Assembly: GCA_021773395.1 (NCBI GenBank)
Contig: JAJFKB010000020.1
Coordinates: 124,001-188,000, forward strand
Direction of reading: 5' to 3'
Origin: Gammaproteobacteria bacterium
Lineage (GTDB): Bacteria > Pseudomonadota > Gammaproteobacteria > Pseudomonadales > IMCC2047
DNA length: 64,000 bases
In this document: piece after piece, positions 1-58,799 of the stretch
How the letters are laid out: each line of letters begins with the position of its first letter
Position numbering within the stretch: the first letter of the stretch is position 1
Program-made: the position numbers and the translations under genes
Notes under the pieces: model-generated
Database searches by the model: none
Seen by the model: the letters and a program-made list of their open reading frames with translations, nothing else
What the model was told of the DNA's origin: nothing

Positions 1-421
1 GGCAGCTCTCGGCATGCCCACCATGATAGTTGATGGCCAGGATCTCTTTGCCTGTGGCGAGGCGGCACTAAAAGCGATTGATCATGCCCGTAAAGGTAAG
101 GGGCCATTTTTTGTTGAGGCCAAATATCTGCGTGCGCAGGAGCACAATGTAGGCGGCTTGAACACCAGTGGTGACGTACCGCGCAGTCAAGAACTTATGG
201 AGAAGTGGAAAGAAGAGCGAGATCCACTGAAACTGGCGACGCTGCAGTTGCTTGACGAGGGAATTCTGACCCAGAAGGAGATCGAGAAGATCCAAAAAGA
301 CGCAGAGGATGAGGCTGATAAGATTGAGGAAGCTGCCGACCAATCACCCAAGGCGCTTCCGTCAATTGAAGAGCTGCTGGCTGCTGTGTATGCACCTGAC
401 ACTGTCGTGGAGAATGCCTAA
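1..421 (+). CDS. 2-oxoacid (acetoin/pyruvate-type) dehydrogenase E1 alpha subunit, C-terminal fragment
   Basis: This is the C-terminal end of the alpha subunit of a thiamine-diphosphate-dependent E1 component; its start lies before the window. The frame is open from base 2 and encodes AALGMPTMIVDGQDLFA, the usual strand after the ThDP fold, then the EAKYLRAQEH region and a Glu-rich tail ending in an AVYA-like terminus. The stop overlaps the ATG of the beta subunit by one base (TAATG), so the two subunits are translationally coupled. The family oxidatively decarboxylates 2-oxoacids or acetoin and passes the acyl group to E2. The substrate cannot be read from this fragment. Confidence 0.88.
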   Translation, partial: AALGMPTMIVDGQDLFACGEAALKAIDHARKGKGPFFVEAKYLRAQEHNVGGLNTSGDVPRSQELMEKWKEERDPLKLATLQLLDEGILTQKEIEKIQKDAEDEADKIEEAADQSPKALPSIEELLAAVYAPDTVVENA

Positions 422-1392
422 TGAGTGAAGTTCGAGAGCTGACTTTTAGCGAGGCCATTAACGAGGCCTACATTGAAGAAATGCAGTGTGATGAAAATGT
501 CTTTTTGTTTGGTGAGTGTATACGTGCGGGCACCTTTCCCCATACGGCGGGATTGTTAAAAAAATTCGGTGAAAAACGGGTTTTAGATTCCCCTATTGCA
601 GAAGCCAATATGGCAGGTTTTGCCTTGGGCGCTGCTCAGGAGGGCCTCAGACCGGTGGTGGACTTTATGTATGCCGGTTTTTCTTACTATGCAGCAACGG
701 AAATTTTCCTGAATACAGCGTCGTACTATCATGTGCATGGGAGCCAGCACCCCGTACCCATCGTTTATGTGGGTACCTGCGGTGTTGGCAGGCGCGTGGG
801 TTACGAGCACGCTACTCCTGTCTATGGCACCGCGATACACCATCCGGGATTGAAGGTTTGTATGCCATCGACTCCTTATGATGCGAAGGGGCTAATGAAG
901 GCGGCAATTAGAGATAATAATCCAGTGTTTTTCCTCTGGCATACAACTATGGTCGCTCAAAAGGGACCAGTACCCGAAGAGGAATATATCGTGCCGTTGG
1001 GCTTGGCTGACGTTAAGCGGGAAGGCACGGATGTCACCATACTAACGCTTGGGTTACAGGTGCATAACGCACTTGCTGTAGCTGAAACCCTCCAAGATGA
1101 AATCAGTGTTGAGGTGGTTGATGCTCGCAGCGTTGAACCTTTTGATCTGGAAACGTTGCTGAAGTCAGTGGAGAAGACAACACGATTAGTTATTGTTGAC
1201 GAAGATATAGAACGTGCCGGGTTTGCAGCGGAAATTTCTGCTTTGATGATGGAGCAGGGATATGATTTGTTGGACGCACCGGTTAAACGTGTTTGTCATC
1301 CAAACTTCCCTTCCCCGGGTGGGTATATGGATGCTTACACCATGCCCACTCCAGAGCGGATTGAAGATGCCGTTCGTGAAGTCTGTCGCTAA
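421..1392 (+). CDS. 2-oxoacid dehydrogenase E1 beta subunit
   Basis: The 323-residue protein has the length and fold order of E1 beta subunits of pyruvate, acetoin and branched-chain 2-oxoacid dehydrogenases: LTFSEAINEAYIEEM at the N-terminus, the DSPIAEANMAGFALGAA block near residue 57, GLRPVVDFMYAGF, PSTPYDAKGLMKAAIRDNNPV, and a transketolase C-terminal domain with VVDARSVEPFD and IVDEDIERAG. The block that is usually QHSQSxEAxFAHIPGLKV reads YEHATPVYGTAIHHPGLKV, so the active-site entrance differs from ordinary pyruvate dehydrogenase. It forms the heterotetrameric E1 with the upstream subunit. The context with a diketone hydrolase suggests an unusual 2-oxoacid or acetoin-like substrate, which is inference. 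Confidence 0.93.
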   Translation: MSEVRELTFSEAINEAYIEEMQCDENVFLFGECIRAGTFPHTAGLLKKFGEKRVLDSPIAEANMAGFALGAAQEGLRPVVDFMYAGFSYYAATEIFLNTASYYHVHGSQHPVPIVYVGTCGVGRRVGYEHATPVYGTAIHHPGLKVCMPSTPYDAKGLMKAAIRDNNPVFFLWHTTMVAQKGPVPEEEYIVPLGLADVKREGTDVTILTLGLQVHNALAVAETLQDEISVEVVDARSVEPFDLETLLKSVEKTTRLVIVDEDIERAGFAAEISALMMEQGYDLLDAPVKRVCHPNFPSPGGYMDAYTMPTPERIEDAVREVCR

Positions 1393-1404
1393 GGAGTCGG
1401 TAAA

Positions 1405-2664
1405 ATGATACGTGAACTAATAATGCCACAACTGGCAATGGGAATGTCTGAAGGCACCATTCTAGAATGGATTGTTGCTGAGGGTGATTATGTGGAGCGG
1501 GATACTTCACTGCTTTCAATTGAAACGGAGAAAGTTGTTACCGAATTGCCCGCGCCTGGTAAAGGCTATTTGCACATTATGGTAGATGCTGGCACAGCCG
1601 TGCCGGTGGAAAATATAATCGGAAAATTGGCCAGTACAGAAGAAGAGTATCAACAGCTTCTGGCGTCTTGGGGGTCAAATGAAGTAGAGGTTTCTGCTAA
1701 AACTAAGGTGGTTGAGGGAACGGTAGCTGTTTCTGAAGCTTTACCAAGCTCTGAAGTGAGACAGGTAGGAGGCAGAGTAAAGGCCAGCGGGCTTGCCAAG
1801 AAAATTGCCAGCCTTGAAGGTGCAGAACTTTCTACAATTGTAGGAACCGGTCCTGGAGGGCGCATTGTAAAACGCGATGTACTTCAGGCTGTTAAGACTC
1901 AAAGCACGGCAGCACCAGTGGTAGTGACAACTGCGGCTGATATGGTCGAAAAAGCCCGTATCCCTTTAACTGGAATGCGGGGCGCTATCGCCAAAAGTGT
2001 TGCGCAGGCTACCACTGAGGCGGCGCCAACCAGTGCATTCTTTGAAGTTGATGTCACTAAGCTACTAGCGGTACGAAAGACAATGCTCGATCGTGAGGAG
2101 CAGCTTGGTGTTCGTGTATCTATGGCAGCGTTAATTCTCCGTGCGCTTGCTCTTGCCTGTCAGGACGTGCCGATCGCTAATGCGACTATCGCTAAAGATG
2201 CTGTGACAGTTTGGGAAAACGTCAATGTGGCCATCGCCGTGGCGTTACCTGGTAAGGATGAATATGACTCTGGCATTGCTATGCCAGTGTTAAAGAATGT
2301 AGAAGCTAAAACCGTCTTGCAGATTACACGTGAAATGAAAGAACTGACTTTGCGTGCTCGCAACGGTGAATTAGCTGCCGCTGATATGAGCGACCACACC
2401 ATTATGATGTCTAGCACCGCTGGGCTTAAAAATCCTGGTGCTTGGGGAATATCGGCTCCTGTCCTTAAGTTGCCTGCCATTATGGCGTTTCAGCCTGGAT
2501 CAACGCTTAAGAAGCCGGTAGTTATCGATGGCCAGATTGTAGTGAGAGATATTCTGCCATGCGGGCTAACCTTTGACCATAGAGCAACCGACGGGGTCCC
2601 AGTAGGGAAATTAATGGCGAAAATCTCAGATCTGCTCAGCAACCCTGAATTGATGTTGTTGTAA
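1405..2664 (+). CDS. 2-oxoacid dehydrogenase E2, dihydrolipoamide acyltransferase
   Basis: The 419-residue protein has one lipoyl domain (residues 1-75, with the lipoylated lysine expected at K43 in IETEKVV), a peripheral-subunit-binding domain around residues 125-165 (ASGLAKKIASLEG and GTGPGGRIVKRDV) and a catalytic domain ending in FDHRATDGVPVGK, with the catalytic His392 and Asp396. It transfers the acyl group made by E1 to coenzyme A and forms the core of the complex. It starts 12 bases after the E1 beta stop, behind the ribosome site AAGGAG. A single lipoyl domain is usual for acetoin and branched-chain complexes. The acyl specificity is not readable. Confidence 0.94.
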   Translation: MIRELIMPQLAMGMSEGTILEWIVAEGDYVERDTSLLSIETEKVVTELPAPGKGYLHIMVDAGTAVPVENIIGKLASTEEEYQQLLASWGSNEVEVSAKTKVVEGTVAVSEALPSSEVRQVGGRVKASGLAKKIASLEGAELSTIVGTGPGGRIVKRDVLQAVKTQSTAAPVVVTTAADMVEKARIPLTGMRGAIAKSVAQATTEAAPTSAFFEVDVTKLLAVRKTMLDREEQLGVRVSMAALILRALALACQDVPIANATIAKDAVTVWENVNVAIAVALPGKDEYDSGIAMPVLKNVEAKTVLQITREMKELTLRARNGELAAADMSDHTIMMSSTAGLKNPGAWGISAPVLKLPAIMAFQPGSTLKKPVVIDGQIVVRDILPCGLTFDHRATDGVPVGKLMAKISDLLSNPELMLL

Positions 2665-2697
2665 AACCCCCTTTGTTAATGATTGGTAGGAAAAAGG

Positions 2698-4101
2698 ATG
2701 AGCAAGAAGCAATTTGATGTGGTTGTAGTGGGTGGTGGCCCCGGTGGTTACGTTGCTGCGATTCGTGCGGCCCAACTCGGCATAAAAGTAGCGTTGGTCG
2801 AGCGGGAACACTTGGGGGGTATCTGTCTTAACTGGGGTTGTATTCCTACCAAAGCCCTGCTGCGCTCTGCTGAAATTTTTGACTTTATGAAACATGCTGA
2901 TAAGTTTGGCTTATCAGTTAAAGGGGCAGATTTTGATCTCGCTAAGATCGTTAAGCGATCTCGTGGTGTTTCTAAGCAGCTTAGTGGTGGTGTTGCCCAT
3001 CTGCTCAAGAAAAACAAAGTGACAGTTTTTGATGGTGAGGGATCCCTTAAAACAGCGGGTCAGCTGGAAGTTAAGGATGCCATGGGTGCCACCGAAATCA
3101 TAAAAGCCAAGCATATTATCCTGGCGACAGGTGCTCGTGCTCGTCAGTTGCCCGGTCTGGAAGCCGACGGCAAGCTGGTGTGGAGTTATAAGGAAGCGTT
3201 GGTTCCAGACGCCATGCCTAAATCACTTTTGGTCGTTGGCTCGGGTGCTATTGGTATGGAGTTTGCCAGCTTTTATAACTCTTTGGGCGCGAAGGTGACT
3301 GTGGTAGAGGTGCTACCTCAGGCATTGCCCGTTGAAGATAAAGAAATTTCCAATTTCGCCGCCAAAGCCTTTGTTAAAAAAGGTATTGATGTCCTGCTGG
3401 AAACGACAGTTAAGTCATTATCAAAAAAGGCTGAATCTGTGGTGGCTACCCTCGAGAACAAAGGGAAAACCAACCAGTTAGAGGTTGATCGGATTATTTC
3501 TGCGGTAGGTGTTGTTCCCAACGTCGAAGGGCTCGGTTTAGAGAAGTTGGGCGTTGCGCTGGACAAGAAAGGGTTTATCCAAGTAGACGGTTATGGTCGT
3601 ACCAGTGTTGCCGGTATTTATGCTATTGGCGATGTGGCTGGCGCGCCTTGTCTTGCTCATAAAGCCAGCCACGAAGGCACGATTTGTGTTGAGAATATCG
3701 CTGCGACTGGTACTGCTCATACTCTGGATAAGGATCGCATACCAGGTTGTACTTACTGTACGCCTCAGATTGCCAGTGTCGGATTGACTGAACAACAGGC
3801 CAAGGATAAAGGCTTGGATATTCGAATCGGACGTTTCTCTTTTGCTGGTAACGGCAAGGCATTAGCCTTGGGCGAGGCAGAAGGCTTGATTAAAGTTGTT
3901 TTCGACAAGACCACTGGCGAACTGCTGGGGGCCCATATGGTGGGTGTCGAGGTTACTGAGCTTATTCAGGGCTATGGCATAGCTCAAAGTCTGGAAGCCA
4001 CAGAGGCTGATTTGATGAATACTGTTTTTGCGCACCCCACGCTTTCTGAAATGCTACATGAATCGGTTCTTGATGCTTATGATCGCGCTATTCATATATA
4101 A
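2698..4101 (+). CDS. lpdA: Dihydrolipoamide dehydrogenase (E3)
   Basis: This flavoprotein reoxidises the lipoyl groups of the preceding E2 and reduces NAD+. From the chosen ATG it has 467 residues: the FAD-binding GGGPGGYVAA at residues 12-21, the redox-active disulfide C43 and C48 in GICLNWGCIPTKALL, a second dinucleotide site VVGSGAIGMEF, and the C-terminal FAHPTLSEMLHE with the active-site His-Glu pair. A TTG at 2683 is in frame, but the ATG at 2698 is preceded by AGGAAAAAGG and gives the normal family N-terminus. It closes the E1-E2-E3 group. The housekeeping E3 of the organism may lie elsewhere, so this may be a dedicated copy. Confidence 0.95.
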   Translation: MSKKQFDVVVVGGGPGGYVAAIRAAQLGIKVALVEREHLGGICLNWGCIPTKALLRSAEIFDFMKHADKFGLSVKGADFDLAKIVKRSRGVSKQLSGGVAHLLKKNKVTVFDGEGSLKTAGQLEVKDAMGATEIIKAKHIILATGARARQLPGLEADGKLVWSYKEALVPDAMPKSLLVVGSGAIGMEFASFYNSLGAKVTVVEVLPQALPVEDKEISNFAAKAFVKKGIDVLLETTVKSLSKKAESVVATLENKGKTNQLEVDRIISAVGVVPNVEGLGLEKLGVALDKKGFIQVDGYGRTSVAGIYAIGDVAGAPCLAHKASHEGTICVENIAATGTAHTLDKDRIPGCTYCTPQIASVGLTEQQAKDKGLDIRIGRFSFAGNGKALALGEAEGLIKVVFDKTTGELLGAHMVGVEVTELIQGYGIAQSLEATEADLMNTVFAHPTLSEMLHESVLDAYDRAIHI

Positions 4102-8707: not shown

Positions 8708-9109
8708 ATGAGCGTAACAATTCCTGAAGCTGATCGTGATTTGTTAGAGCGTCCTATCTACGTGCAACTGGGAACCCATCTACCCAATGGCTCAATACAG
8801 GTGCACCCGGTCTGGTGTAATCTGGATGGCAACACCATCCTGATCAATTCGGCAAAAGGCCGCATAAAAGATAGAAATATGCGGCGAAATCCTAATGTCA
8901 CCATTCTTGCTATGGATCCAGATGACCCGTTTCACTGGGTTGAGGTTCGTGGCCTTGTGGAGGAAATCACAGAAGAGGGAGCAGATAAACATATTGACGA
9001 ATTGTCCGAGCTTTATTTCAAGAAGCCATACCCATTTCGATTTGAGGGCGAGGTCAGGGTCACCTATAAAATAAAACCCACTAAAGTAGTAAATTTTTCT
9101 CCCGGCTAA
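8708..9109 (+). CDS. PPOX-class (pyridoxamine-phosphate-oxidase-like) flavin/F420-type protein
   Basis: The 133-residue protein is a single split-barrel domain of the PPOX class: LLERPIYVQLGTHLPNGSIQVHPVWCNLDGNTILINSAKGRIKDRNMRRNPNVTILAMD is the conserved core that binds FMN or F420 phosphate through the K-GR-K segment, followed by VEVRGLVEEIT and a C-terminal strand pair. Members reduce or oxidise small molecules or bind haem. Gammaproteobacteria generally lack F420, so FMN is the more likely cofactor. The start has GGAGTAAGCA directly upstream. It may share a transcript with the SDR gene. Confidence 0.8.
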   Translation: MSVTIPEADRDLLERPIYVQLGTHLPNGSIQVHPVWCNLDGNTILINSAKGRIKDRNMRRNPNVTILAMDPDDPFHWVEVRGLVEEITEEGADKHIDELSELYFKKPYPFRFEGEVRVTYKIKPTKVVNFSPG

Positions 9110-9287: not shown

Positions 9288-10073
9288 ATGGCAAGAATTC
9301 TTTATGTCGGGTGCGGATATATTGGTACCGAACTTGCTCTTCACCAGACCGCCGTTGGACATCAGTGCTTTGGATTAAGGCGCCAGAGCAATCAGCTTCC
9401 TGATGCAATTCATGCGTTGCAGGCGGATGTAACCCAGCTAGAAACCCTTAGCCAGCTGCCTGCCGACCTCAATTATGTGGTGGTCTCTCTAACACCAGAG
9501 CGTTATGACAAGGCCAGTTACCAGAGCGTCTATGTGCAAGGTCTAAAAAATTTGATTAATGCTCTGCATAGGCAAGGGCAGACCCTGAACAGGATATTTC
9601 TCATCTCCAGTACTGCGGTATATCACCAGAATAATGGAGAATGGGTCGATGAGGACAGCCCCACTAAACCCTTGGGGTTTTCCGGTAAAGCGATGCTCGA
9701 CGCCGAACAGGTCGCTGCCCGCTGTGGCTATCCAGCTACCTGTGTGCGTTATAGCGGTATTTATGGTCGCGGCGAACCGAGGCTGCTGAACTGGGCCAGA
9801 GAAGGTGTTAGCAGTACCACACAGCCGCCTCATTACAGTAATCGCATTCATATACAGGATTGTATCGGAGTATTAAAGCATCTCATGGAATTGGATATGC
9901 AGGGCTACGAGCTGGCTACTCTTTATCTGGCCTCTGATCCCAATCCAGCCCCCTTTGCTGAGATATTGGATTGGCTGAGAACGCAGCTAGGTGAAGGCAA
10001 GGCCAATCCACTGCTGGATATTGAAAAACGCCTGAGAGCTGGGAGCAAACGCTGCTCCAGTCAGCGGTTGTAA
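9288..10073 (+). CDS. NAD(P)-dependent epimerase/dehydratase-type SDR protein (YeeZ-like)
   Basis: From the ATG at 9288 the protein has 261 residues. It starts with the Rossmann motif ARILYVGCGYIGTELALH, then DVTQLETL, FLISSTAVYHQNNGEWVDE, with Tyr in the active-site position, and VRYSGIYGRGEPRLL. This is the layout of atypical extended SDR proteins such as E. coli YeeZ, whose physiological substrate is unknown. An upstream in-frame TTG at 9228 would add 20 residues of poor quality, whereas CAGGGA lies 7 bases before 9288. It is probably a housekeeping sugar-nucleotide-like reductase; the exact reaction is not known. Confidence 0.8.
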   Translation: MARILYVGCGYIGTELALHQTAVGHQCFGLRRQSNQLPDAIHALQADVTQLETLSQLPADLNYVVVSLTPERYDKASYQSVYVQGLKNLINALHRQGQTLNRIFLISSTAVYHQNNGEWVDEDSPTKPLGFSGKAMLDAEQVAARCGYPATCVRYSGIYGRGEPRLLNWAREGVSSTTQPPHYSNRIHIQDCIGVLKHLMELDMQGYELATLYLASDPNPAPFAEILDWLRTQLGEGKANPLLDIEKRLRAGSKRCSSQRL

Positions 10074-10210
10074 GCCAGCGGTTACCGTTTTAGGTACCCG
10101 GATTACCGTGCCGGATTCGGTGAGCTGATCCAGATATTGTGATGTTAAATAGCAGGGTCAATTAAGAGCCTGCTATGCGACCTGATGATTCATTAAATCA
10201 ACTTCTCTTA

Positions 10211-10224
10211 TTGATCTAGATCAA
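10211..10224. promoter_or_regulatory. FNR/Anr binding site (TTGATCTAGATCAA)
   Basis: The sequence matches the FNR/Anr consensus TTGAT-N4-ATCAA at every position. It lies 134 bases before the GTG of the TrpC-like gene. Candidate -10 elements are TAGAAAT at 10242 and TAATCT at 10276-10281; the second would place the site near -71, an accepted position for FNR activation. An fnr/anr gene is present at 58026. It predicts induction of the downstream operon at low oxygen. Confidence 0.8.
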
Positions 10225-10301
10225 AATTCTAATAACCCTGATAGAAATGCCTTTTGAGCATCTACACTCCTCCTGTAATCTGATATACGAGGAGCTGCTA
10301 A

Positions 10302-10361
10302 ATGAAGAACTCAAGTACCTGCGAGCAACTAATAATCAAAATTAGTGCGGGAGAAATGTGA
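10302..10361 (+). CDS. Possible 19-residue leader peptide overlapping the TrpC-like gene
   Basis: An ATG preceded by GAGGAG at a spacing of 7 opens a 19-codon frame encoding MKNSSTCEQLIIKISAGEM. It ends at ATGTGA, overlapping the GTG start of the next gene by four bases. It holds no tryptophan, so it is not a classical trp attenuator peptide. It could couple translation into the operon. Confidence 0.35.
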   Translation: MKNSSTCEQLIIKISAGEM

Positions 10362-11074
10362 ACAGTAACCAGCAAAAATCCATTGATGTTTCTTTTTCTA
10401 CCGCAATCATATGCGCACGAAAAAATGGTAAGCTGCCTGTGATCACTGATATAAAACCCACCTCACCGAGAGACGGAGATCTACTGGGTCAGAGGAAACC
10501 TTCAGACTTAGCATGCGGACTGGCAAAAGCCGGGGCATGCGCTCTCTCCGTTGTCACTGAGTCAAAGAACTTCGGTGGAAGTAACGACATACTACGTCAG
10601 GTTGCAGATGCTGTTCCCTTGCCTGTCCTTGCCAAAGATTTTTTCAAGACACGTGAACAGGTAAGAGCCGCCGCCGATGCTGGTGCCAGCGCCATATTAT
10701 TAATTATGGCAACCACGCCAGACCCGCTTGCGTTGCAGTTATATCAGGCCGCACAGGATCTGGGTATGGAAGTTAATGTAGAGATTCATTCAGAGGATGA
10801 GTTGGAGCGGGCACTTAAACTAAATCCAACAATCATCGGCATTAATAACCGGGATATCCTGCAACTGGAAACAGATGCTGGCGATGTTCGTATTACCGAG
10901 AAACTGGCGCCGCTTGTACCAGACTCGATCATCACCATATCTGAAAGTTCTCTCCGCACCGCTGATGACATTAAAAGGGCCATGCAAGCAGGTGTTGATG
11001 CTGTATTAGTTGGAACGGCTGTTCTGCAGTCATCAGATCTACATGCCTGCTTGAAAAAGCTGATGGATGGATGA
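10358..11074 (+). CDS. TrpC-like (indole-3-glycerol-phosphate-synthase-family) protein, divergent
   Basis: The 238-residue TIM-barrel protein keeps most catalytic positions of indole-3-glycerol phosphate synthase: K33 in DIKPTSP, K93 in LAKDFF, E142 in VEIH, GINNRD at 161-166 and SES at 195-197, plus phosphate-binding VGTA. The catalytic Glu of the first strand (IAExK in the family) is Asp31 here. The N-terminal extension that covers the active site is shorter than in ordinary TrpC (about 255-270 residues). The known reaction is ring closure with decarboxylation of an anilino-deoxyribulose phosphate. Its stop overlaps the TrpF-like start by 8 bases. No trpA or trpB is nearby. I infer a related cyclisation on another aryl amine. 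Confidence 0.8.
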   Translation: MNSNQQKSIDVSFSTAIICARKNGKLPVITDIKPTSPRDGDLLGQRKPSDLACGLAKAGACALSVVTESKNFGGSNDILRQVADAVPLPVLAKDFFKTREQVRAAADAGASAILLIMATTPDPLALQLYQAAQDLGMEVNVEIHSEDELERALKLNPTIIGINNRDILQLETDAGDVRITEKLAPLVPDSIITISESSLRTADDIKRAMQAGVDAVLVGTAVLQSSDLHACLKKLMDG

Positions 11075-11753
11075 TGTGACAAGAGTCAAGATATGTGGTC
11101 TGATGAGTCAGAGTGACGTTGACATGGCCGTATATGCCGGCGCAGATTCGCTGGGCTTTGTAATTGAATATCCCGTTACGGTACCATGGAACATAGATAG
11201 AAGTGATGCCGCCAGACTCATCGCAAATGCTCCACCCTTTGTAACGACCACTGCTGTTGTGGGCGGCTCGATTGACCATATTTTAAAAATTGCACAATCA
11301 GTTCAACCGAATTTTATTCAGCTTCATGGCGACGAAAGCCTGGATGAGATAAAAACGATCTGCGCATCATTAAAGGGTACAGGCATCAAGGTGTTAAAAG
11401 CACTCCGTATTGATGTCGATACGGGTCAAGCACTTTTTGATATCAGTGATCCTGTCGAAGCATCTACTATTCTGGCCGAATCAGGCATTGTCGCGATCGT
11501 TGTTGACTCGAAGACCTCTTCCCGACCGGCAGGAACGGGCATCACGCTCGATTGGGATGTCATGAAAAAAGTATCCGCTGCTGTACGGCTACCTGTGATT
11601 CTAGCAGGGGGGCTGAATGCCAAAAATGTAGCGGAGGCTATAAATCAGGTGCGTCCTTATGCTGTCGATGTCATTAGTGGCGTTGAGGAAACAACAGCTG
11701 TGAAAGGAGAACAATTAATCGTGGACTTCATTCGCGCAGCCAAGTTTGCCTAG
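11067..11753 (+). CDS. TrpF-like (phosphoribosylanthranilate-isomerase-family) protein, divergent
   Basis: The 228-residue TIM barrel has the general base C10 in VKICGL and the general acid D147 in VVDSK, together with FIQLHGDES, ILAGGLNAKNV and VDVISGVE, all hallmarks of TrpF. The family catalyses an Amadori rearrangement of an N-phosphoribosyl arylamine. The loop that in TrpF reads YxKSxRYISP and carries the Arg that holds the anthranilate carboxylate (Arg36 in Thermotoga maritima) is replaced by EYPVTVPWNIDR, two residues longer and with no Arg in the equivalent place. The chemistry thus seems kept while the substrate ring differs. It is translationally coupled to the TrpC-like gene. Confidence 0.82.
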   Translation: MDDVTRVKICGLMSQSDVDMAVYAGADSLGFVIEYPVTVPWNIDRSDAARLIANAPPFVTTTAVVGGSIDHILKIAQSVQPNFIQLHGDESLDEIKTICASLKGTGIKVLKALRIDVDTGQALFDISDPVEASTILAESGIVAIVVDSKTSSRPAGTGITLDWDVMKKVSAAVRLPVILAGGLNAKNVAEAINQVRPYAVDVISGVEETTAVKGEQLIVDFIRAAKFA

Positions 11754-11791
11754 AATATCTCTGAAACAATTATTTTGGTTATGAAGGAATA

Positions 11792-12469
11792 ATGAATAGA
11801 CCATACACAAAAATGCTGGTTGCGGTGAGCTTGGATGGAAAGATCTCTCCACCACGTAGCCCCGGACAGACAAACCCCATTGGACCAGATCTTATTGATG
11901 GGAAGATCATGGAGCTCCATAATTCTCAACGCGCAAGCGTTGATGGGATTATGGTGGGTTTGAATTGTATTTTACTGGACAACTCTAAACTTACCCTTAG
12001 AGAAGGTGCTGGCAAGAATCCGACACGTATTGTATTGGATGGCATGGCAGAAATACCAGCTACGGCAAGAGTACTGAATAATGAGTCAGTATCTATTGTA
12101 GTTGTCAGTGAAGATGCTCCCAGGGAAAATGTCGAAGCATTCAAAGCAGCAGGAGCAGAAATTATCGTTTCTGGAAAAGGTAAATATGTGGACTTACCAA
12201 CAATGCTGGCAGAATTATATGATCGTTTTGGCATTAAAACTCTGCTGGTAGAAGGTGGTGGCACTGTACACCGATCCATGATTGCACAAAACCTTTACGA
12301 TGAGATCCAGTTAATCATATGTCCTTTTGTAATGGGTGGCTCCTCATCCATTACACCAGTAGAAAGACAGGCGTTCTGGCCACAGGAAACAGTTCCAAAG
12401 TATCAGCTGCATCATTCAAAAGTGATCGGTGACTATCTCTATGTAAGCTACAAACCAGATAAATGTTAG
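11792..12469 (+). CDS. RibD C-terminal-type (dihydrofolate-reductase-fold) reductase
   Basis: The 225-residue protein is a stand-alone RibD reductase domain: MLVAVSLDGKISPP at the N-terminus, HNSQRASVDGIMVGLNCILLDNSKLTLR, PTRIVLDG and LLVEGGGTVHRSM, which bind NADPH. It has no deaminase domain, like archaeal enzymes that reduce the ribosyl group of a pyrimidine riboflavin precursor to ribityl. Riboflavin genes are absent here; it sits between TrpF- and TrpD-like genes behind GAAGGAATA. I infer that it reduces the ketose (deoxyribulose) side chain made by the TrpF-like enzyme, or a related sugar carbonyl. Reduction of a ring in the substrate is an alternative. Confidence 0.82.
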   Translation: MNRPYTKMLVAVSLDGKISPPRSPGQTNPIGPDLIDGKIMELHNSQRASVDGIMVGLNCILLDNSKLTLREGAGKNPTRIVLDGMAEIPATARVLNNESVSIVVVSEDAPRENVEAFKAAGAEIIVSGKGKYVDLPTMLAELYDRFGIKTLLVEGGGTVHRSMIAQNLYDEIQLIICPFVMGGSSSITPVERQAFWPQETVPKYQLHHSKVIGDYLYVSYKPDKC

Positions 12470-12529
12470 TGAGTTTGGCGTGGTTATAAAACACTATCCT
12501 AAAACCTATTATAAAGGTGGAACGATAAA

Positions 12530-13645
12530 ATGGATGACAAAGAGAAAAGATCAAGAGAATTTGGCGCGGTTATTGTACGTCTAACCAAAGGGGAGAATCT
12601 AACCAAGGAGGAGGCACGTGAATGCTGGTGTCAAATTTGTGAGGAAAAGCAAACCGAGTTGCAGCAGGGTGCCTTTATTAGCGCGCTAAAAGCAAAACCT
12701 GAAACTGCAGCGGAAATAGCCGGGACATTTGAGGCCCTCTATTCTCACGATACAGTAAAAGTCAGCGTTGATACACCTGAACCCTTGATTGACAACTGCG
12801 GCACTGGAGCGGATACGCTCAAAACCATAAACGTCAGTACCGGTGCTGGCATTATCGCTTCGGCCTGTGGCCTATATGTTGTGAGACATGCGGCCCGAGC
12901 TATCTCTTCCAACTGTGGTGCCATCGATGTAATTGAGGCGCTTGGAGTAGACGTTGAATCTGGTCCGTCAATTCCAAAACAAAGTATTGAAAAAGCAGGT
13001 ATCTGCGCCTGGAATGCATTTCTACCATCCATTCATCCGAAGACCTTGGCTCGTGTGCTTTCACAAATCAGATTTGGATCAACCATCAATTTAGTCGGGC
13101 CACTACTTAACCCAACCATGCCTTCCTACAAGGTCATGGGAGTACCAAGTGTAGAAATGATTAATAGCACAGCTGAAACTCTGCACATGCTAGGATTGAA
13201 AAGAGTTTTTATCATGCATGGGCTGGACAGAAATTCCGAAAAAGGAATGGATGAAATTTCTACTCTGGGCCCCACGCACGTTGCAGAACTCCATGAGGAT
13301 GGATCCATTGAGAATAACATCATCAATCCCGAGGACTTTGGTATCAAAGCAGTAAAATACGAAGATATCGCATCGACGCGTGCTGTCCATACTGATGCTT
13401 TGGCTTTGCTGAGAGTGTTATCAGGTAAAGACAGTGGACCGCGCCGTGATATTATGTGTATTAACGCGGCGCCGATGCTATACATTATGGGTAAGGCGAA
13501 AGACCTCCGAGAGGGGTATAATATGGCGATAGCCGCCGTAGAAGATGGCAAAGCCCTGAAAAAACTGCGTACTTGGGTAACGCATCAGAATGAAGGCCCG
13601 GAACAGGGTCTGTCCACACTCGAAAGAATGCTGGAGCAGGTATGA
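12530..13645 (+). CDS. TrpD-like (anthranilate-phosphoribosyltransferase-family) protein, divergent
   Basis: The 371-residue protein belongs to the class III phosphoribosyltransferases: a helical N-terminal domain, the PRPP loop DNCGTGADTLKTINVST (family GTGGD, here GTGAD at 91-95), ISSNCGAIDVIEALGV, LVGPLLNP near 188-194, and the metal site GMDEIS. The KHGNR motif, whose Asn contacts anthranilate, reads RHAAR at 119-123, and the PVRxxLGxRT segment, whose Arg holds the anthranilate carboxylate, is replaced by LSQIRFGST. So PRPP binding appears intact while the acceptor site is altered. It overlaps the Mo-enzyme start by four bases (ATGA). Thymidine-phosphorylase-type activity is unlikely given the PRPP loop. 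Confidence 0.82.
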   Translation: MDDKEKRSREFGAVIVRLTKGENLTKEEARECWCQICEEKQTELQQGAFISALKAKPETAAEIAGTFEALYSHDTVKVSVDTPEPLIDNCGTGADTLKTINVSTGAGIIASACGLYVVRHAARAISSNCGAIDVIEALGVDVESGPSIPKQSIEKAGICAWNAFLPSIHPKTLARVLSQIRFGSTINLVGPLLNPTMPSYKVMGVPSVEMINSTAETLHMLGLKRVFIMHGLDRNSEKGMDEISTLGPTHVAELHEDGSIENNIINPEDFGIKAVKYEDIASTRAVHTDALALLRVLSGKDSGPRRDIMCINAAPMLYIMGKAKDLREGYNMAIAAVEDGKALKKLRTWVTHQNEGPEQGLSTLERMLEQV

Positions 13646-15870
13646 AGAAAGACGCTACAGTAAAATACTCCACCTGTTACTTTTGTACCAGTAAAGGTTG
13701 CGGAGTCAAAGTAGAGGTAGAGGGTAACAAGGTGGGCAAGGTGACCTTTGACACCGATGCCCCTGTAATACCGGGTGTATTTTGCAAGCGTCCCACACTC
13801 GCGGGGGATTACCAACATCACCCCTTCCGTCTCAAGTATCCCATGAAACGCAAAGGAGAAAGAGGAGCCAATCAGTGGAAACAGATATCCTGGGAGCAGG
13901 CCCTTGACGAAATAGCTGAGAAATTGGCTAATATTCGTGAGCAATACGGTGCTGAAGCCGTGGCTACCAGTTCTGGTACCGGCCGTGGTGCCGCCGACTT
14001 TGCCAAATCACGATTCATGAACCTGTTTGGCAGCCCCAACCGTTTCGGCGCGGTCACCATCTGCTACGGCCCACGTAGCATGGTGTGGAATTCAACCTTT
14101 GGTGGCGCGCTTGTTTCGAGCCGCAAACAGGGTGTCACAAAAATGATGGTTCTGTGGGGTCGTAACGCGCACGAAGGGGGCCCCGGTTCCTGGCACAGCT
14201 TTCTTGAAGCAAAAAGATCAGGTATGCGGACCATGGTGGTTGATCCGCGGCACAATGAACCTGCCCGACAGGCGGATTGCTGGGTACAATTACACCCGGG
14301 AACAGATGCGGCGTTGGCACTCGGGATGATGCATGTCATTATCAATGAAGAGTTGTATGACAAAAAGTTTGTCGAAGAAAGCACCATAGGCTTTGAGGAA
14401 CTCCGGAAGCGTGTGCAGTCCTTCACTCCGGAGAGAACAGCTGAAATTACAAAAATTTCAGCCTATAAGATCGTAGAAATAGCACGATTCTTTGCCAATA
14501 ATCAGCCCTGTGACATGGTGATTGGCGAAGCCGCAGAACACAGCTCACCAAACAGCATCAACGCCATTCGCGCCATTAATATACTTCGGGCCATTGTCGG
14601 TTCCGTTGACGTCGAGGGCGGCGGTCTCGTTGCAGGCCCTTACCCGGGTTTTATTCCGGATGCCGCAATGGAACTCAATCATATGCTATCGCCGGAACAG
14701 CGTCGTAAACAGCTGGGTGCCGATCGTTTCCGTTTCCTGAGTTATCCAGGCTGGGAACTGGTCGAAGAACAATTTCGCAAAAAGTGGGGCGAAAACCACC
14801 CGGGAGCGGTTTATCTCAACTGCATGGCGCACGCTCCCACCGCATTTCGTGCCATGCTTGAGAGCGACCCCTATCCGGTAAAAGCGCTGCTCGTTTCGGC
14901 AAGTAACCCCCTACTTTCCCATGGCAACACAAAACTGGTGCACAAGGCATTAAAGGCCACAGAACTGTTGGTCACTTTAGATATTACCTGGACACCCACT
15001 GCGCAGATTTCGGATTATGCGCTACCAGCAGCCTGCTGGCTGGAACGACCGGATATGGGCAACTTTGCATCGATAGGCGCATACCCATTGGTACAGGTGG
15101 GAGAAACGGCTGTTCCTGCAAAAATTCCCGGCGAATATGAACGGCTGAATGACTACGAGTTCTGGCGGGAACTTGGTATGAGACTTGGACAGGAAGACTA
15201 CTGGCCTTGGAAAACTTTTGAGGAAGTATGGGAGTATCGTTTACAGGATCTCATGAAGGAACGTGGGCATGAAACGCTGGAAGAGTTTGTTCAGGACAAA
15301 CGCTGGGCCAAAGCCATGCCCGAGTCAAACCAGGCCCGGCAAGGCAAACTTGCGACCCCTTCAGGTAAAGTAGAGATCTATTCGAGTATCATGGAAAAGA
15401 TCGGCTATGATCCATTGCCCGACTATCAGGAGGTTGTCATTCCTGAAGATATCCAGAGAAAGTACAAATTCCTGAACATTAGCGGCTGCCGTGTCCGGCC
15501 GTACCACCACAGTGAATTTCGACATATCGATAGCTTTCGCAAACAATTACCTGATCCCATCGTCACAATCCACGTAGATACCGCGTTGCGCAAAGGTATA
15601 GCCGATGGTGATTGGGTTTACATAGAAACGCCAATTGGCCGGGCCAAGCAGCGGGCACGTTTGAGTACTGATTTTAATCCGAAATATATCGTCACCCAGC
15701 ATGCCTGGTGGTTCCCGGAAAAACCGGCAGAGGAGCCTTCGCTCTATGGTTTATGGGAATCAAACATTAATGTAACTACCGATGACGATCCTGATCTGTG
15801 CGACCCAATATCTGGTGCATGGCCTTTCAAAGGGCAATATATGCGGTGCAATATATACAAAGCAGAATAA
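13642..15870 (+). CDS. Molybdopterin oxidoreductase (DMSO-reductase superfamily), cytoplasmic
   Basis: The 742-residue protein has the full DMSO-reductase-family layout: an N-terminal [4Fe-4S] site with C12, C15, C20 and C48, the KYPMKRKGERG segment, a likely metal ligand C141 in TICYGPRSMVW, MGD-binding WGRNAHEGGPGS and VVDPRHNEPARQ, and a C-terminal domain with GCRVRPYHHSEFRH and IHVDTALRKGIADGDWV. The spacing C-x2-C-x4-C is one residue longer than the usual C-x2-C-x3-C. There is no twin-arginine signal and no electron-transfer subunit beside it, so it acts in the cytoplasm, perhaps as a hydratase, hydroxylase or reductase. The substrate is unknown. It is the last gene of the FNR-box operon. 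Confidence 0.88.
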   Translation: MKKDATVKYSTCYFCTSKGCGVKVEVEGNKVGKVTFDTDAPVIPGVFCKRPTLAGDYQHHPFRLKYPMKRKGERGANQWKQISWEQALDEIAEKLANIREQYGAEAVATSSGTGRGAADFAKSRFMNLFGSPNRFGAVTICYGPRSMVWNSTFGGALVSSRKQGVTKMMVLWGRNAHEGGPGSWHSFLEAKRSGMRTMVVDPRHNEPARQADCWVQLHPGTDAALALGMMHVIINEELYDKKFVEESTIGFEELRKRVQSFTPERTAEITKISAYKIVEIARFFANNQPCDMVIGEAAEHSSPNSINAIRAINILRAIVGSVDVEGGGLVAGPYPGFIPDAAMELNHMLSPEQRRKQLGADRFRFLSYPGWELVEEQFRKKWGENHPGAVYLNCMAHAPTAFRAMLESDPYPVKALLVSASNPLLSHGNTKLVHKALKATELLVTLDITWTPTAQISDYALPAACWLERPDMGNFASIGAYPLVQVGETAVPAKIPGEYERLNDYEFWRELGMRLGQEDYWPWKTFEEVWEYRLQDLMKERGHETLEEFVQDKRWAKAMPESNQARQGKLATPSGKVEIYSSIMEKIGYDPLPDYQEVVIPEDIQRKYKFLNISGCRVRPYHHSEFRHIDSFRKQLPDPIVTIHVDTALRKGIADGDWVYIETPIGRAKQRARLSTDFNPKYIVTQHAWWFPEKPAEEPSLYGLWESNINVTTDDDPDLCDPISGAWPFKGQYMRCNIYKAE

Positions 15871-16023
15871 TAGTTAACCAATAAAGGGGGGGATTACCAC
15901 TGCACCTTTGGCGGTGCAAAAATCAGCCCAGGAGAAAACTGACAGGCATAAATCAGTTGTCGAAGCATCCAGCGAACTAAGGGATTTGTTTGTGGACAAT
16001 CAATTACCATACACGTCGTCGGT

Positions 16024-18483
16024 TTAGGTTCTCTCTTTTTTGACGTCCCCTTTTAAGGAGTTAGCTAGCAGGTAATTAATGAAATCTGCAGCGGGCAAAG
16101 GGTGGCTGAGCAGGTACCCCTGGCCATAGTTACACCTGATGGAGGTGAGAAATTCAAGCTCGGTTTGGGTTTCTATTCCTTCAGCGACTACGCTGAGCCC
16201 AAGGTTATGCGCCATCGCGGTTATCGCTTTAATCAGCACCTTTGCGTCAAGGTTTTTCTCAATATCCTGTACAAAGGATTTATCAATTTTTAGTGTCGAG
16301 ACGGCTAGGTGGTGCAGGTAACTGAGTGAGGAATACCCTGTACCGAAATCATCTAATGCTATTCTAAAACCTTCCGCAAATAGTATTGCGAGTGTACTTT
16401 TTGCTTGCTCTATTTCATCGGCAATCACGCTTTCGGTAATTTCCAGCACCAGGTTTTCTGATTTTAATCCATGGAGTGTTAACGCTCGCTTTAGAATCGT
16501 TACCAGTTGTGGCGTAAGTTGCTTTGTTGACAGGTTAATGGATAGTCTAAAGTCGGTGCATAATAATTCCAAATCCTGCCATTTGCGATAGTGCTGGCAG
16601 GCTTTATCAATTACCCATTGTCCAATACTCAGTATCAGGTCGCTATCTTCGGCAATGGGTATGAATTGATCCGGCGGGATCAAACCTTTGCTTGGATGAC
16701 GCCACCGAATGAGCGCCTCGGCACCACGGATAATTCCATTCTGAATATCAATGATGGGCTGAAAATCCAAAGATAACTGATTATTAAAAATAGCGAGCGA
16801 TAAATCTTCCTCCAACTTCATGCGCAAGTGCGCTGTTTCGTCCATTTGCCGGGTAAAGAAGTGATAACTGGTTCCCTTGTCATGTTTTGCTTCATACATA
16901 GCAGCGTCAGCACATCGGAGCAGCTCGTCGGCGCTGTCTGCATCTTCAGGGTAGATGGAAACACCTATACTAGCGGATATATCAAGTTGCCTTGAGTTAT
17001 GCTGTATGGGTTTTGATAAAAGACTGACAAGCTTAGTGAGCACGGGACTGACATCGGACGCATTTTTGATTTCAGGTAAAATAATAGTGAACTCGTCGCC
17101 AGCGAGTCTTGCTACGGTGTCTGATTCGCGGACTCCTTGCTGCATTCTTGCTGCGGCCTCTTTCAATGCATCGTCTCCTACGGCATGACCGAAGGAGTCA
17201 TTGATTTTTTTGAAAAAATCCAAATCTATAAACAGTAGTGCTACTCGAGTAGATTTGCGCCGTGCCTTTCTGATGGCCTGCGATAGACGGTCAAAGAAAA
17301 GAGCTCTATTCGGTAATCCGGTTAAGCCGTCATGATTGGCTTGATGTCGGATGACCTGGTCAGCAACTACCTGACGCGTGATGTCTTCCTGAATCAGTAT
17401 GACTTCGCTGACTGTTCCATTGCTATCTGGAATGGGGTAAATATGAGACTCAAGCCAGCGTTTTTGTTTGTTATCTCCCGGTTTTTCAGACGGCATCAGG
17501 TATTCTACTGGCGGAATTTTTACCGTCTCACCCTGAAATCCCCGCTGTACGTTCTCCAGTACACCATGAGATTCAAGCTCTGGATCTGTTAAAATGTTGT
17601 AGCTGCTTGCCAAAAGCTGTGCCTTGCTGGAGTGCCATAACTGTTCCCATGCACGATTGACATCCACTGCTTTGCCAGTAGGTGAGAATATCTGAATGCT
17701 GAGGGGGCTTTCTTTGTACAGCGCATGAAATCTGGTTTCAGATGCCTTGATGTTGGCTTCCGCAATTTTTCGATCTGTAATATCAGAAACAGACCCGGCA
17801 ATTCGATAGGCATTTCCGTTTGATCTGAATTTCGCGACGCCCCGATCTTGTAACCAGCGTACGTCACCTTGTTCTGTAATGACTCGATATTCAAAATCAA
17901 GGTATTTTGTATTTCCTTTACAGAGGTTCAAAATGGCATTACTAAGGGGAACGCGGTCGTCCTCATGAAAATAGGAAAAAAGTTGTCTTGAGCTAAGTGT
18001 TGAACTTGGCAGGGTGTGGCCGAGAATTTCTCCCATACGTGATGATACGTAGACTTCATCGTTTTCAATATTCCAATCCCAAAGACCATCTTTTGCGCCG
18101 TCAAAGGCTAGAGAGTAGCGCTCGACCCACATTTTCATTGTTTGAATCTGTTCTAGCAGCGCATGAGTTTCAGAGGTGTTTTTCAGTACTAGCTGAATGC
18201 CTTTATCCGGCAATTTGGTACATTGCAAGTCTATTGATGTGCCCGCAGCATTGAGCCATTCTTTGGAAAAGGAGGTTGAATCAAACGATTGTATTAGTTC
18301 TTGAGGAAGTTTAAACAGCTCTACGAACCGGATGAAGCTAATTTTGGGTTTAACTGTTTGCGACTCGCTGTCCAATATCGAGTGTGCAGTTGGATTCATA
18401 AAGATCAGCTGTCGATTGTTATCAAAAAGACAGATGCCCAAATCCAGGTTTTCGAGAGCTTGTTTGTAGATGTTTGCGACCAT
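16024..18483 (-). CDS. PAS-PAS-PAS-GGDEF-EAL protein (cyclic-di-GMP turnover)
   Basis: The 819-residue protein has three PAS domains (about 1-110, 125-245 and 250-375; the second is of the PAS_3 type with DGLWDWN), a GGDEF domain (about 385-545) and an EAL domain (560-805). The GGDEF signature reads AGDEF, a substitution found in some active cyclases. The EAL domain keeps EALIRW, LEITESV, ALDDFGTGYSSL, LKIDKSFV and AEGIE, so it should hydrolyse cyclic-di-GMP. There is no membrane segment or signal peptide, so it senses a cytoplasmic cue. It is a single gene, convergent with the Mo-enzyme operon. Confidence 0.93.
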   Translation of the reverse strand: MVANIYKQALENLDLGICLFDNNRQLIFMNPTAHSILDSESQTVKPKISFIRFVELFKLPQELIQSFDSTSFSKEWLNAAGTSIDLQCTKLPDKGIQLVLKNTSETHALLEQIQTMKMWVERYSLAFDGAKDGLWDWNIENDEVYVSSRMGEILGHTLPSSTLSSRQLFSYFHEDDRVPLSNAILNLCKGNTKYLDFEYRVITEQGDVRWLQDRGVAKFRSNGNAYRIAGSVSDITDRKIAEANIKASETRFHALYKESPLSIQIFSPTGKAVDVNRAWEQLWHSSKAQLLASSYNILTDPELESHGVLENVQRGFQGETVKIPPVEYLMPSEKPGDNKQKRWLESHIYPIPDSNGTVSEVILIQEDITRQVVADQVIRHQANHDGLTGLPNRALFFDRLSQAIRKARRKSTRVALLFIDLDFFKKINDSFGHAVGDDALKEAAARMQQGVRESDTVARLAGDEFTIILPEIKNASDVSPVLTKLVSLLSKPIQHNSRQLDISASIGVSIYPEDADSADELLRCADAAMYEAKHDKGTSYHFFTRQMDETAHLRMKLEEDLSLAIFNNQLSLDFQPIIDIQNGIIRGAEALIRWRHPSKGLIPPDQFIPIAEDSDLILSIGQWVIDKACQHYRKWQDLELLCTDFRLSINLSTKQLTPQLVTILKRALTLHGLKSENLVLEITESVIADEIEQAKSTLAILFAEGFRIALDDFGTGYSSLSYLHHLAVSTLKIDKSFVQDIEKNLDAKVLIKAITAMAHNLGLSVVAEGIETQTELEFLTSIRCNYGQGYLLSHPLPAADFINYLLANSLKGDVKKERT

Positions 18484-36341: not shown

Positions 36342-36355
36342 TTGATCTTGATCAA
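36342..36355. promoter_or_regulatory. FNR/Anr binding site (TTGATCTTGATCAA)
   Basis: This is a perfect match to TTGAT-N4-ATCAA. A -10 element TTTATA at 36377-36382 lies 31 bases from its centre, the geometry of a class II FNR-activated promoter (site near -41.5). The predicted start near 36390 would transcribe the lipoprotein gene at 36610 and yheU. Confidence 0.78.
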
Positions 36356-36568
36356 GAGGCAGCGCGAAACAAAGCATTTATACACAAGTCAGTTATTTTG
36401 CGTTGCGAAAGATAGAAAATACTGATTAAAACTGGTAGAAAAATATTGACAACTTGCAACCTATTGATAAATAAAAGAATATGTATTTTTGGTTAAAATT
36501 TGCACAATCTGAGCTCGACCTCAAGAATCAGTCGCCTTTGGCGGGTTACTCAATTTATATACCCAGAC

Positions 36569-58025: not shown

Positions 58026-58799
58026 TTAGCGGGACTCGCTGTTATTCGGTTCCTGATTCAACACACAGGAACCTGCGGTTTCTTCAAGTAACTTGGCATC
58101 TGTAATTTCTACGGCTCTTCCCGTTACAGATATTACACCGGCTTTTTGCAGACGAGAAAAGACTCGACTTATGGTTTCTACAGCCAAACCAAGATAGTTG
58201 GCAATCTCATTGCGGGACATGGTGAGGTAGATAAAATCAGCCGCGTAGCCTCTGCGTTGAATTCTGGCAGACAAATCCAGCAGGAAATTAGCGACGCGTT
58301 CCTCAGCATTCTTCTGACTCAGCAATAACATCATATGCAAATCGCCACGAATCTCTTTACTGAGAGAGTGAATGAACTGACGTTTCAGCTCTGGCATCTG
58401 ATCGGTTAGTTGCTCAAATCGAGAATAGGGTATTTCGCAGATGGTTGTGGTCTCAATTGCCACTGCGCTGACTGGATAACTCTGGGTATCTATCCCGCTG
58501 AGACCGATAAGTTCTCCCGGAAGATAAAAGCCGGTAATTTGATCCTCACCCTGCGCGGTAATTGAATAGGTTTTAATGCAGCCGCTACGAATGGCAAAAA
58601 GCGCTTTAAAGTGCTCGCCCTGGCGGAAAAGAAATTCACCTTTTTTAATGGGACGACTGCGATTAATGATCGAGTCTAATCGATCAATATCCTGGGAGTT
58701 CAATAACAGGGGCAAGCACAGTGTGCGTAAACTACAACTCTGGCATGTTGTCTCACGAAAGGAGTGTAACCTTACTGCTTGCGACTCAGACTTATTCAA
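58026..58799 (-). CDS. fnr: FNR/Anr oxygen-responsive transcriptional regulator
   Basis: The 257-residue CRP-family regulator has the four cluster cysteines of FNR: C19, C22, C28 in CQSCSLRTLC and C121 in TTTICEIPY. The DNA-recognition helix contains LAVETISRVFSR with the Glu-Ser-Arg trio that reads TTGAT. It senses oxygen through a [4Fe-4S] cluster and activates genes at low oxygen. The window contains two perfect sites for it (10211 and 36342). Its position between ttcA and the cbb3 assembly genes is typical of Anr in Pseudomonas relatives. Confidence 0.96.
   Translation of the reverse strand: MNKSESQAVRLHSFRETTCQSCSLRTLCLPLLLNSQDIDRLDSIINRSRPIKKGEFLFRQGEHFKALFAIRSGCIKTYSITAQGEDQITGFYLPGELIGLSGIDTQSYPVSAVAIETTTICEIPYSRFEQLTDQMPELKRQFIHSLSKEIRGDLHMMLLLSQKNAEERVANFLLDLSARIQRRGYAADFIYLTMSRNEIANYLGLAVETISRVFSRLQKAGVISVTGRAVEITDAKLLEETAGSCVLNQEPNNSESR

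Follow-up and report, generated by a model that had tools for sequence, protein, structure and literature searches.

A putative retargeted trpD-trpF-trpC branch, grouped with a RibD-type reductase and a molybdenum/tungsten enzyme under probable FNR control, in a gammaproteobacterium

The closest described system to the locus reported here is the trpD-trpF-trpC section of tryptophan biosynthesis, whose enzymes recognize anthranilate through a few known residues. The anthranilate carboxylate is held by Arg193 and Asn138 of TrpD (PMC9835598) and shielded by Arg36 of TrpF (PMC9088769), and the N-terminal lid of indole-glycerol-phosphate synthase (IGPS, TrpC) helps to enclose its ligand (PMC7681013). 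Trp genes have also been recruited to secondary metabolism: the calcium-dependent antibiotic cluster holds its own second copies of branch genes, with trpC2, trpD2 and trpE (PMC5270213). We analysed a 64,000-nucleotide stretch of DNA from a Gammaproteobacteria bacterium (assembly GCA_021773395.1, contig JAJFKB010000020.1, positions 124,001 to 188,000), called the window below, which carries an operon of five genes designated TrpC', TrpF', RibD', TrpD' and the molybdenum/tungsten (Mo/W) enzyme. The operon shares with trpD-trpF-trpC the three protein families, the catalytic residues and the adjacency of the genes; it differs in that the carboxylate residues of TrpD' and TrpF' are lost, the TrpC' lid is missing, RibD' and the Mo/W enzyme are added, and a full trp set is present elsewhere in the genome. 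It can be likened by gene content to the antibiotic cluster, but that cluster includes trpE and the operon does not. From these sequence features we consider it reasonably probable that the operon arose by duplication of a trp branch, which has been retargeted to an aromatic amine different from anthranilate and would build a fused pyrrole from it.

The five genes occupy positions 10358-15870, all on the + strand and all with intact frames. TrpC' (10358..11074) is an IGPS barrel without the N-terminal lid, and TrpF' (11067..11753) is phosphoribosylanthranilate-isomerase-like, both according to Pfam, NCBIfam and alignment. RibD' (11792..12469) is a monofunctional RibD C-terminal reductase, nearest to TIGR01508 in NCBIfam; TrpD' (12530..13645) belongs to the anthranilate phosphoribosyltransferase family (TIGR01245, alignment); and the Mo/W enzyme (13642..15870) belongs to the DMSO-reductase family (Pfam, NCBIfam), with 2e7z as its nearest structure. 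A preliminary description of this DNA had reported five tightly packed genes, and the coordinates recomputed from the open reading frames (ORFs) reproduced both of its overlaps, of 8 bases between TrpC' and TrpF' (11067-11074) and of 4 bases between TrpD' and the Mo/W enzyme (13642-13645). Its family assignments (IGPS, PRAI, RibD_C, Glycos_transf_3/TrpD and molybdopterin oxidoreductase) agreed in Pfam and NCBIfam searches, and, as it had stated, none of trpA, trpB, trpE or trpG lies within the five-gene operon. The perfect upstream FNR/Anr box that it had pointed out is an exact motif match, TTGATCTAGATCAA, at 10211..10224 on the + strand, and a gene for an Fnr regulator lies in the same window. 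Its term "class III" for the phosphoribosyltransferase has to be corrected, as TrpD is described as the only member of phosphoribosyltransferase structural class IV (PMC5537072).

Residues were compared with reference rows taken from retrieved loci (98 for TrpD, 42 for TrpF and 110 for TrpC, each set with one of the genome's own genes entered twice) and with the corresponding prime proteins of two other genomes, G001 and G175. TrpD' scored 279.2 bits against TIGR01245, above the cut-off of 199, and D223 and E224, the magnesium and phosphoribosyl pyrophosphate (PRPP) residues, were present in 98/98 references and in all three TrpD'. The Arg193 column, which holds Arg in 97 of the 98 references, reads Leu in the window and Glu in both G001 and G175. 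Likewise, the Asn138 column (Asn in 93/98 references, Gly in four and Ser in one) reads Ala in the window and Ser in the other two, and the KHGN motif has become RHAA in the window TrpD'. A profile built without the prime sequences yielded the same TrpD and TrpF columns. A YbiB/TrpD2-type DNA-binding protein was considered for TrpD' and rejected (24.1 bits to NF006005 vs 279.2 to TIGR01245). The single TrpD reference without Arg193 is a Kitasatospora protein (L122:3347-5456) that also lacks the His and Asn of KHGN; its neighbours are TrpC- and TrpA-like genes and a 2749-residue ORF, and the locus is possibly a case of trp genes recruited into a natural-product cluster.

The second enzyme shows the same pattern of kept catalysis and lost recognition. 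Catalytic Cys7 was found in 42/42 TrpF references and in the three TrpF', all of which also keep catalytic Asp126. The Arg36 column holds Arg in every one of the 42 references and Trp in all three TrpF', and in the window protein it is preceded by a 2-residue insertion. A tryptophan on the equivalent loop is known from HisA/PriA, whose W145 stacks on a larger substrate (PMC9088769); TrpF' resembles HisA/PriA in this respect but differs in being a PRAI-family protein by sequence. The TrpF' proteins of the window, G001 and G175 form one clade (support 100/99). The NCBIfam score of the window TrpF' was 150.1 bits against a cut-off of 215, which the genome's normal TrpF (200.2 bits, its best NCBIfam score) does not reach either.

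In TrpC', residues K53, K110, E159 and R182 were conserved in 110/110 references and in all primes, and S211 is kept in the window protein. E51, a Glu in all 110 references, is Asp in the window TrpC' only, and E210 is replaced by Ala in the G001 TrpC'. The window protein has at most 36 open-frame residues ahead of K53, where the reference median is 69, with an in-frame stop at 10343; the N-terminal lid helix of IGPS is therefore missing from it. The G175 TrpC' has 59 open-frame residues at this place, with which a lid is compatible. Fewer than 45 residues precede K53 in 3 of the 110 references, L095 and L123 (contig-start cut) and L121 (uncut). The last of these (L121:1795-2532) is a Holophaga trpC with 38 open-frame residues before K53, too few for the usual lid, and carries SPSMGDL. 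TrpC' scored under every listed NCBIfam TrpC equivalog cut-off, one of which is passed by the genome's normal TrpC, and the TrpC' proteins of the three sets formed one clade in a quick tree (SH-aLRT 100). An IGPS can close the ring of a substrate that has no carboxylate, about 1000 times more slowly (PMC7681013).

The genome also carries a normal set of tryptophan genes, all apart from the operon: trpE-trpG-trpD on contig C21, trpD-trpC-trpF on C8 and trpB-trpA on C18. NCBIfam cut-offs were passed by trpE, the trpG/pabA-type subunit, both trpD, trpC, both trpB and trpA. The operon TrpD' is the third trpD above 200 bits in the genome (a fourth match scores 44 bits), and the operon copies are the second trpC and at least the second trpF. 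The operon is thus neither the only nor a complete trp set, having no trpE, trpG, trpA or trpB of its own. The preliminary description took the locus for something other than ordinary tryptophan synthesis, a view to be given up if the genes complemented trp mutants and no other trp operon existed; because a complete set lies on C21, C8 and C18, and with the carboxylate-recognition residues lost, this view is, on sequence grounds, well supported for this genome. The second normal trpB, on C1 (L050:6495-7700), scores 552 bits to TIGR00263 and has its lysine; it stands without an adjoining trpA, next to a DEAD-box-helicase-like gene. The trpC and trpF on C8 (L146:7535-10500) form long branches in the trees.

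We then asked how widely the set is distributed. The genome samples searched for TrpC' overlap and cover Pseudomonadota only, and some searches used a profile that included the window's own sequence. Among the four genomes of the family sample, the genome itself gave 5.9e-122 and G001 gave 5.6e-131; the other two gave 1e-41 to 1e-42, which is the level of an ordinary trpC in this search. At E <= 1e-52, 2 of 391 genomes of the order sample matched (the genome itself and G001). The phylum sample yielded 1 of 398, again the genome itself. A single-sequence query of the class sample gave 10 matches among 369 genomes at E <= 1e-38, of which only the genome's own and that of G175 have the prime motifs. 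A wider contig scan with generic peptide patterns, in which 80 of the 88 loci found were retained, showed both prime motifs among these 80 only in L052 and L054, which share motif stretches with the G175 and G001 contigs and add no further genome; L070 and L121 matched the TrpC motif alone. No plasmid match to TrpC' was found at 1e-45. TrpC' is rare in the genome samples.

In both G001 and G175 the TrpD', TrpC' and TrpF' genes lie in one run, so that their linkage is found in three genomes. The G001 and G175 proteins are 72% (TrpF'), 72% (TrpD') and 57% (TrpC') identical; these bacteria have only their class in common, and such likeness suggests transfer. G175 has normal genes elsewhere, trpD-trpC on C81 and trpF, trpB and trpA on C66; its normal trpF retains Arg36 and its normal trpC the N-terminus. 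A normal trpB-trpA is present in G001. Divergent from its three-gene run, G175 also carries a TrpB'-TrpA' pair (contig C146, L046:3016-5119, - strand). In this TrpB', K87 is replaced by His, so that the pyridoxal-phosphate lysine is lost, and E109 by Ala (Lys and Glu in 39/39 references), and in TrpA' D60 is replaced by Glu (Asp in 33/33). The lysine-less TrpB' nevertheless passes the trpB cut-off (396.8 vs 392.45 bits), as TrpD' passes its own, and annotation by score would label such proteins as tryptophan enzymes. In plants, a TrpB-type pseudoenzyme drives TrpA to release free indole (PMC12727527). This eudicot TSB-like protein resembles the G175 locus only, as a TrpB relative without essential residues beside a TrpA; the G175 protein differs in being bacterial and clustered with TrpD', TrpC' and TrpF', and the window holds no counterpart.

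Taken together, the kept and lost residues point to the following route. With PRPP as donor, TrpD' would place phosphoribose on the amino nitrogen of an aromatic or heteroaromatic amine without an ortho-carboxylate, and TrpF' would convert the N-riboside to its 1-deoxyribulose form. TrpC' would then use ribose C1 and C2 to close a pyrrole on the aromatic ring; the usual decarboxylation would not occur, and the product would be a fused, indole-like ring bearing a glycerol-phosphate tail. We infer both the non-anthranilate substrate and the ring closure; the order and role of the remaining two proteins are a guess, in which RibD', a pyridine-nucleotide-type reductase, would reduce the precursor or product, and the Cys-ligated Mo/W enzyme would oxygenate, hydrate or de-oxygenate it. 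If so, a core metabolic section would have been copied and retargeted with matching losses of recognition in successive enzymes, possibly providing a new route to indole-type heterocycles at low oxygen. As for the low-oxygen pathway proposed in the preliminary description, the catalytic residues needed to transfer phosphoribose, to carry out the Amadori rearrangement and to close the ring are kept; its ketose reduction and its placing of RibD' and the Mo/W enzyme in the same pathway did not gain similar support. Its remark that it knew of no described pathway with this set held in our searches of open-licence PMC papers, which gave no description of such a gene set or pathway. A further extension is tentative: the fused pyrrole of this oxygen-regulated pathway might be reduced and then modified by the Mo/W enzyme, as a new acetylene-hydratase-like type, into an undescribed indole-type cofactor or signal. 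In G175 the same core would end in TrpA' and a TrpB pseudoenzyme and so provide a bacterial counterpart to the release of free indole in plants.

Several observations weigh against retargeting. The window TrpD' has an Arg at -2 and at +4 of the Arg193 column, and its alignment there may be shifted in register; it is 30-32% identical to the other TrpD' and 33-34% to ordinary TrpD, and in a free quick tree it did not join the other TrpD'. Constraining the TrpD' proteins to one group improved the tree by 51 log units (p-AU 0.942), which does not prove a clade. For TrpF', a single pairwise alignment places Pro instead of Trp at Arg36, and a simulation saw Arg36 shield the substrate with little direct contact (PMC9088769). 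TrpC' keeps R182 and has lost no carboxylate contact except the lid, and the uncut reference L121 is likewise short before K53. Neither RibD' nor the Mo/W enzyme is found next to the G001 and G175 sets, and because of this the five-gene linkage rests on one genome; of the conserved neighbourhood to be expected from the preliminary description, only the TrpD'-TrpC'-TrpF' part recurs. Finally, G001 (83% complete) shows only one trpC-type and one TrpD-type gene, both of them primes, and there the set could serve tryptophan synthesis.

This last point bears on the idea that the operon encodes low-oxygen isoenzymes of ordinary tryptophan synthesis, which would also explain the kept catalytic residues and the TrpD' score of 279 bits against an anthranilate-phosphoribosyltransferase cut-off of 199. 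However, a complete normal set exists elsewhere in the genome and the operon is without trpE, trpG, trpA and trpB; carboxylate-recognition residues are lost in both TrpD' and TrpF', TrpC' lies under all the TrpC equivalog cut-offs listed while the normal TrpC passes one, and G175 retains both prime and normal sets. We regard isoenzymes as very unlikely, and rejected them as the leading explanation on account of the complete set and the residue losses. That the genes are decaying paralogues or a chance grouping is highly improbable: the window TrpD' does form a long branch (length 2.05) and the five-gene order occurs in one genome, but the five frames are intact, with overlaps, the catalytic residues are conserved, and the three-gene linkage and shared losses recur across three genomes.

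Two other explanations would assign the added genes differently. RibD' is closest to the 2,5-diamino-6-ribosylamino-4(3H)-pyrimidinone 5'-phosphate reductases, known for reducing an opened sugar in riboflavin synthesis, and is an extra copy, because another RibD_C gene, in a 402-residue frame, lies elsewhere in the genome. TrpD' might then make an N-phosphoribosyl arylamine that RibD' reduces to an N-ribityl, flavin-like compound, with TrpF' and TrpC' as a side branch or with a changed reaction; the latter two have retained their catalytic residues, and in two genomes they are linked to TrpD' in sets without RibD'; we find this route unlikely. In the other explanation, the pathway consists of TrpD', TrpF' and TrpC', possibly also RibD', whereas the Mo/W enzyme is only co-regulated, serving a neighbouring anaerobic phenol metabolism. 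Neither G001 nor G175 has the Mo/W gene next to its set, a pyrogallol-hydroxytransferase-like pair is located a short way upstream of the window, and a related CYGPR enzyme on contig C12 has no trp-like neighbours among ORFs of at least 180 residues. The 4-base overlap of TrpD' with the Mo/W gene, by contrast, points to translational coupling, and such co-regulation seems possible but doubtful. Retargeting of the trp branch remains the reading that we prefer.

The RibD' protein consists of a lone reductase domain, with 6p8c and 2azn as its nearest PDB entries. It scored 150.5 bits to TIGR01508, under the equivalog cut-off of 186.45. It is like the archaeal-type RibD reductase (TIGR01508, 2azn) in family and overall sequence; where these relatives carry DDP, RibD' has DNS, and no riboflavin genes accompany it in the operon.

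The Mo/W enzyme has a Cys metal ligand (CYGPR), and no twin-arginine motif was found in its first 40 residues. The closest solved structure, acetylene hydratase 2e7z (400.9 bits; thiosulfate reductase, 230.5), is similar over nearly the full length and shares the Cys ligand and the iron-sulphur cysteines. We take Asp13 and the ring residues I14, I113, I142, W179, W293 and W472 to be those with active-site roles in acetylene hydratase; they are T, S, G, Y, P, I and F, respectively, in the operon enzyme. With Asp13 and the hydrophobic ring lost, acetylene hydratase proper was rejected for this protein. By the motifs GTGR and CYGPR or CYLPR it groups with 3 of the 9 other proteins compared. Three matches besides itself were found in this genome at 1e-30. 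A second acetylene-hydratase-like Mo enzyme of the genome (G000 C12, L134:9797-11953; 38% identity) groups by motif with the operon enzyme and sits behind an AraC-like regulator gene, with no trp-like genes around it among ORFs of at least 180 residues. At 1e-120 the phylum sample gave matches in 2 of 398 genomes, the genome itself and G654; one plasmid match, from Rhodococcus, was found at 1e-100, and none of the 16 annotated features listed there is trp-like.

The operon is probably under FNR control and switched on at low oxygen, as judged from the box and the Fnr gene. Exact matches to TTGATNNNNATCAA occur twice in the window, where 0.14 are expected, and two or more were found in 1 of 100 shuffles. 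The Fnr regulator (58026..58799, - strand) scores 288.2 bits to NF008365 (cut-off 228) and is probably the partner of the box at 10211. The other perfect box, at 36342-36355, lies upstream of an ORF at 36481. Between box and operon, a predicted leader ORF of 19 codons (10302..10361, + strand) has a Shine-Dalgarno-like AGGAG and a stop that overlaps the GTG start of TrpC'. A promoter scan gave no + strand sigma-70-like site from 10080 to 11895; because the scan totals were near expectation (promoters, 12 found vs 9.1 expected; terminators, 8 vs 5.7), no promoter or terminator site was used. No known RNA family was found in 9900-16200 at E <= 0.5. The five operon genes have a G+C content of 43-51%, against 42-52% in the other window genes examined, and recent import of the operon was rejected as its composition shows no contrast with the window.

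The surroundings fit a low-oxygen, aromatic-compound setting and do not name a substrate. The two members of the pyrogallol-hydroxytransferase-like Mo enzyme pair (L135:12554-16426) match 4v4c with 881.7 and 234.7 bits; the pair ends about 2.6 kb ahead of the window start. The window itself opens with genes that resemble the E1-beta, E2 and E3 components of a 2-oxo-acid-dehydrogenase complex (2-4101); we read the frame at 2-418 as E1-alpha-like, and it had no NCBIfam match at 1e-30. Complexes of this kind are involved in the anaerobic degradation of resorcinol, and these first genes may encode a hydroxybenzoquinone dehydrogenase. The hydroxytransferase-like pair and the dehydrogenase-like complex probably form an island of anaerobic phenol metabolism. 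Between this complex and the operon, positions 8708-9109 encode a PPOX-class protein that scores 90.3 bits (cut-off 79.05) to TIGR03618, a family named F420-dependent.

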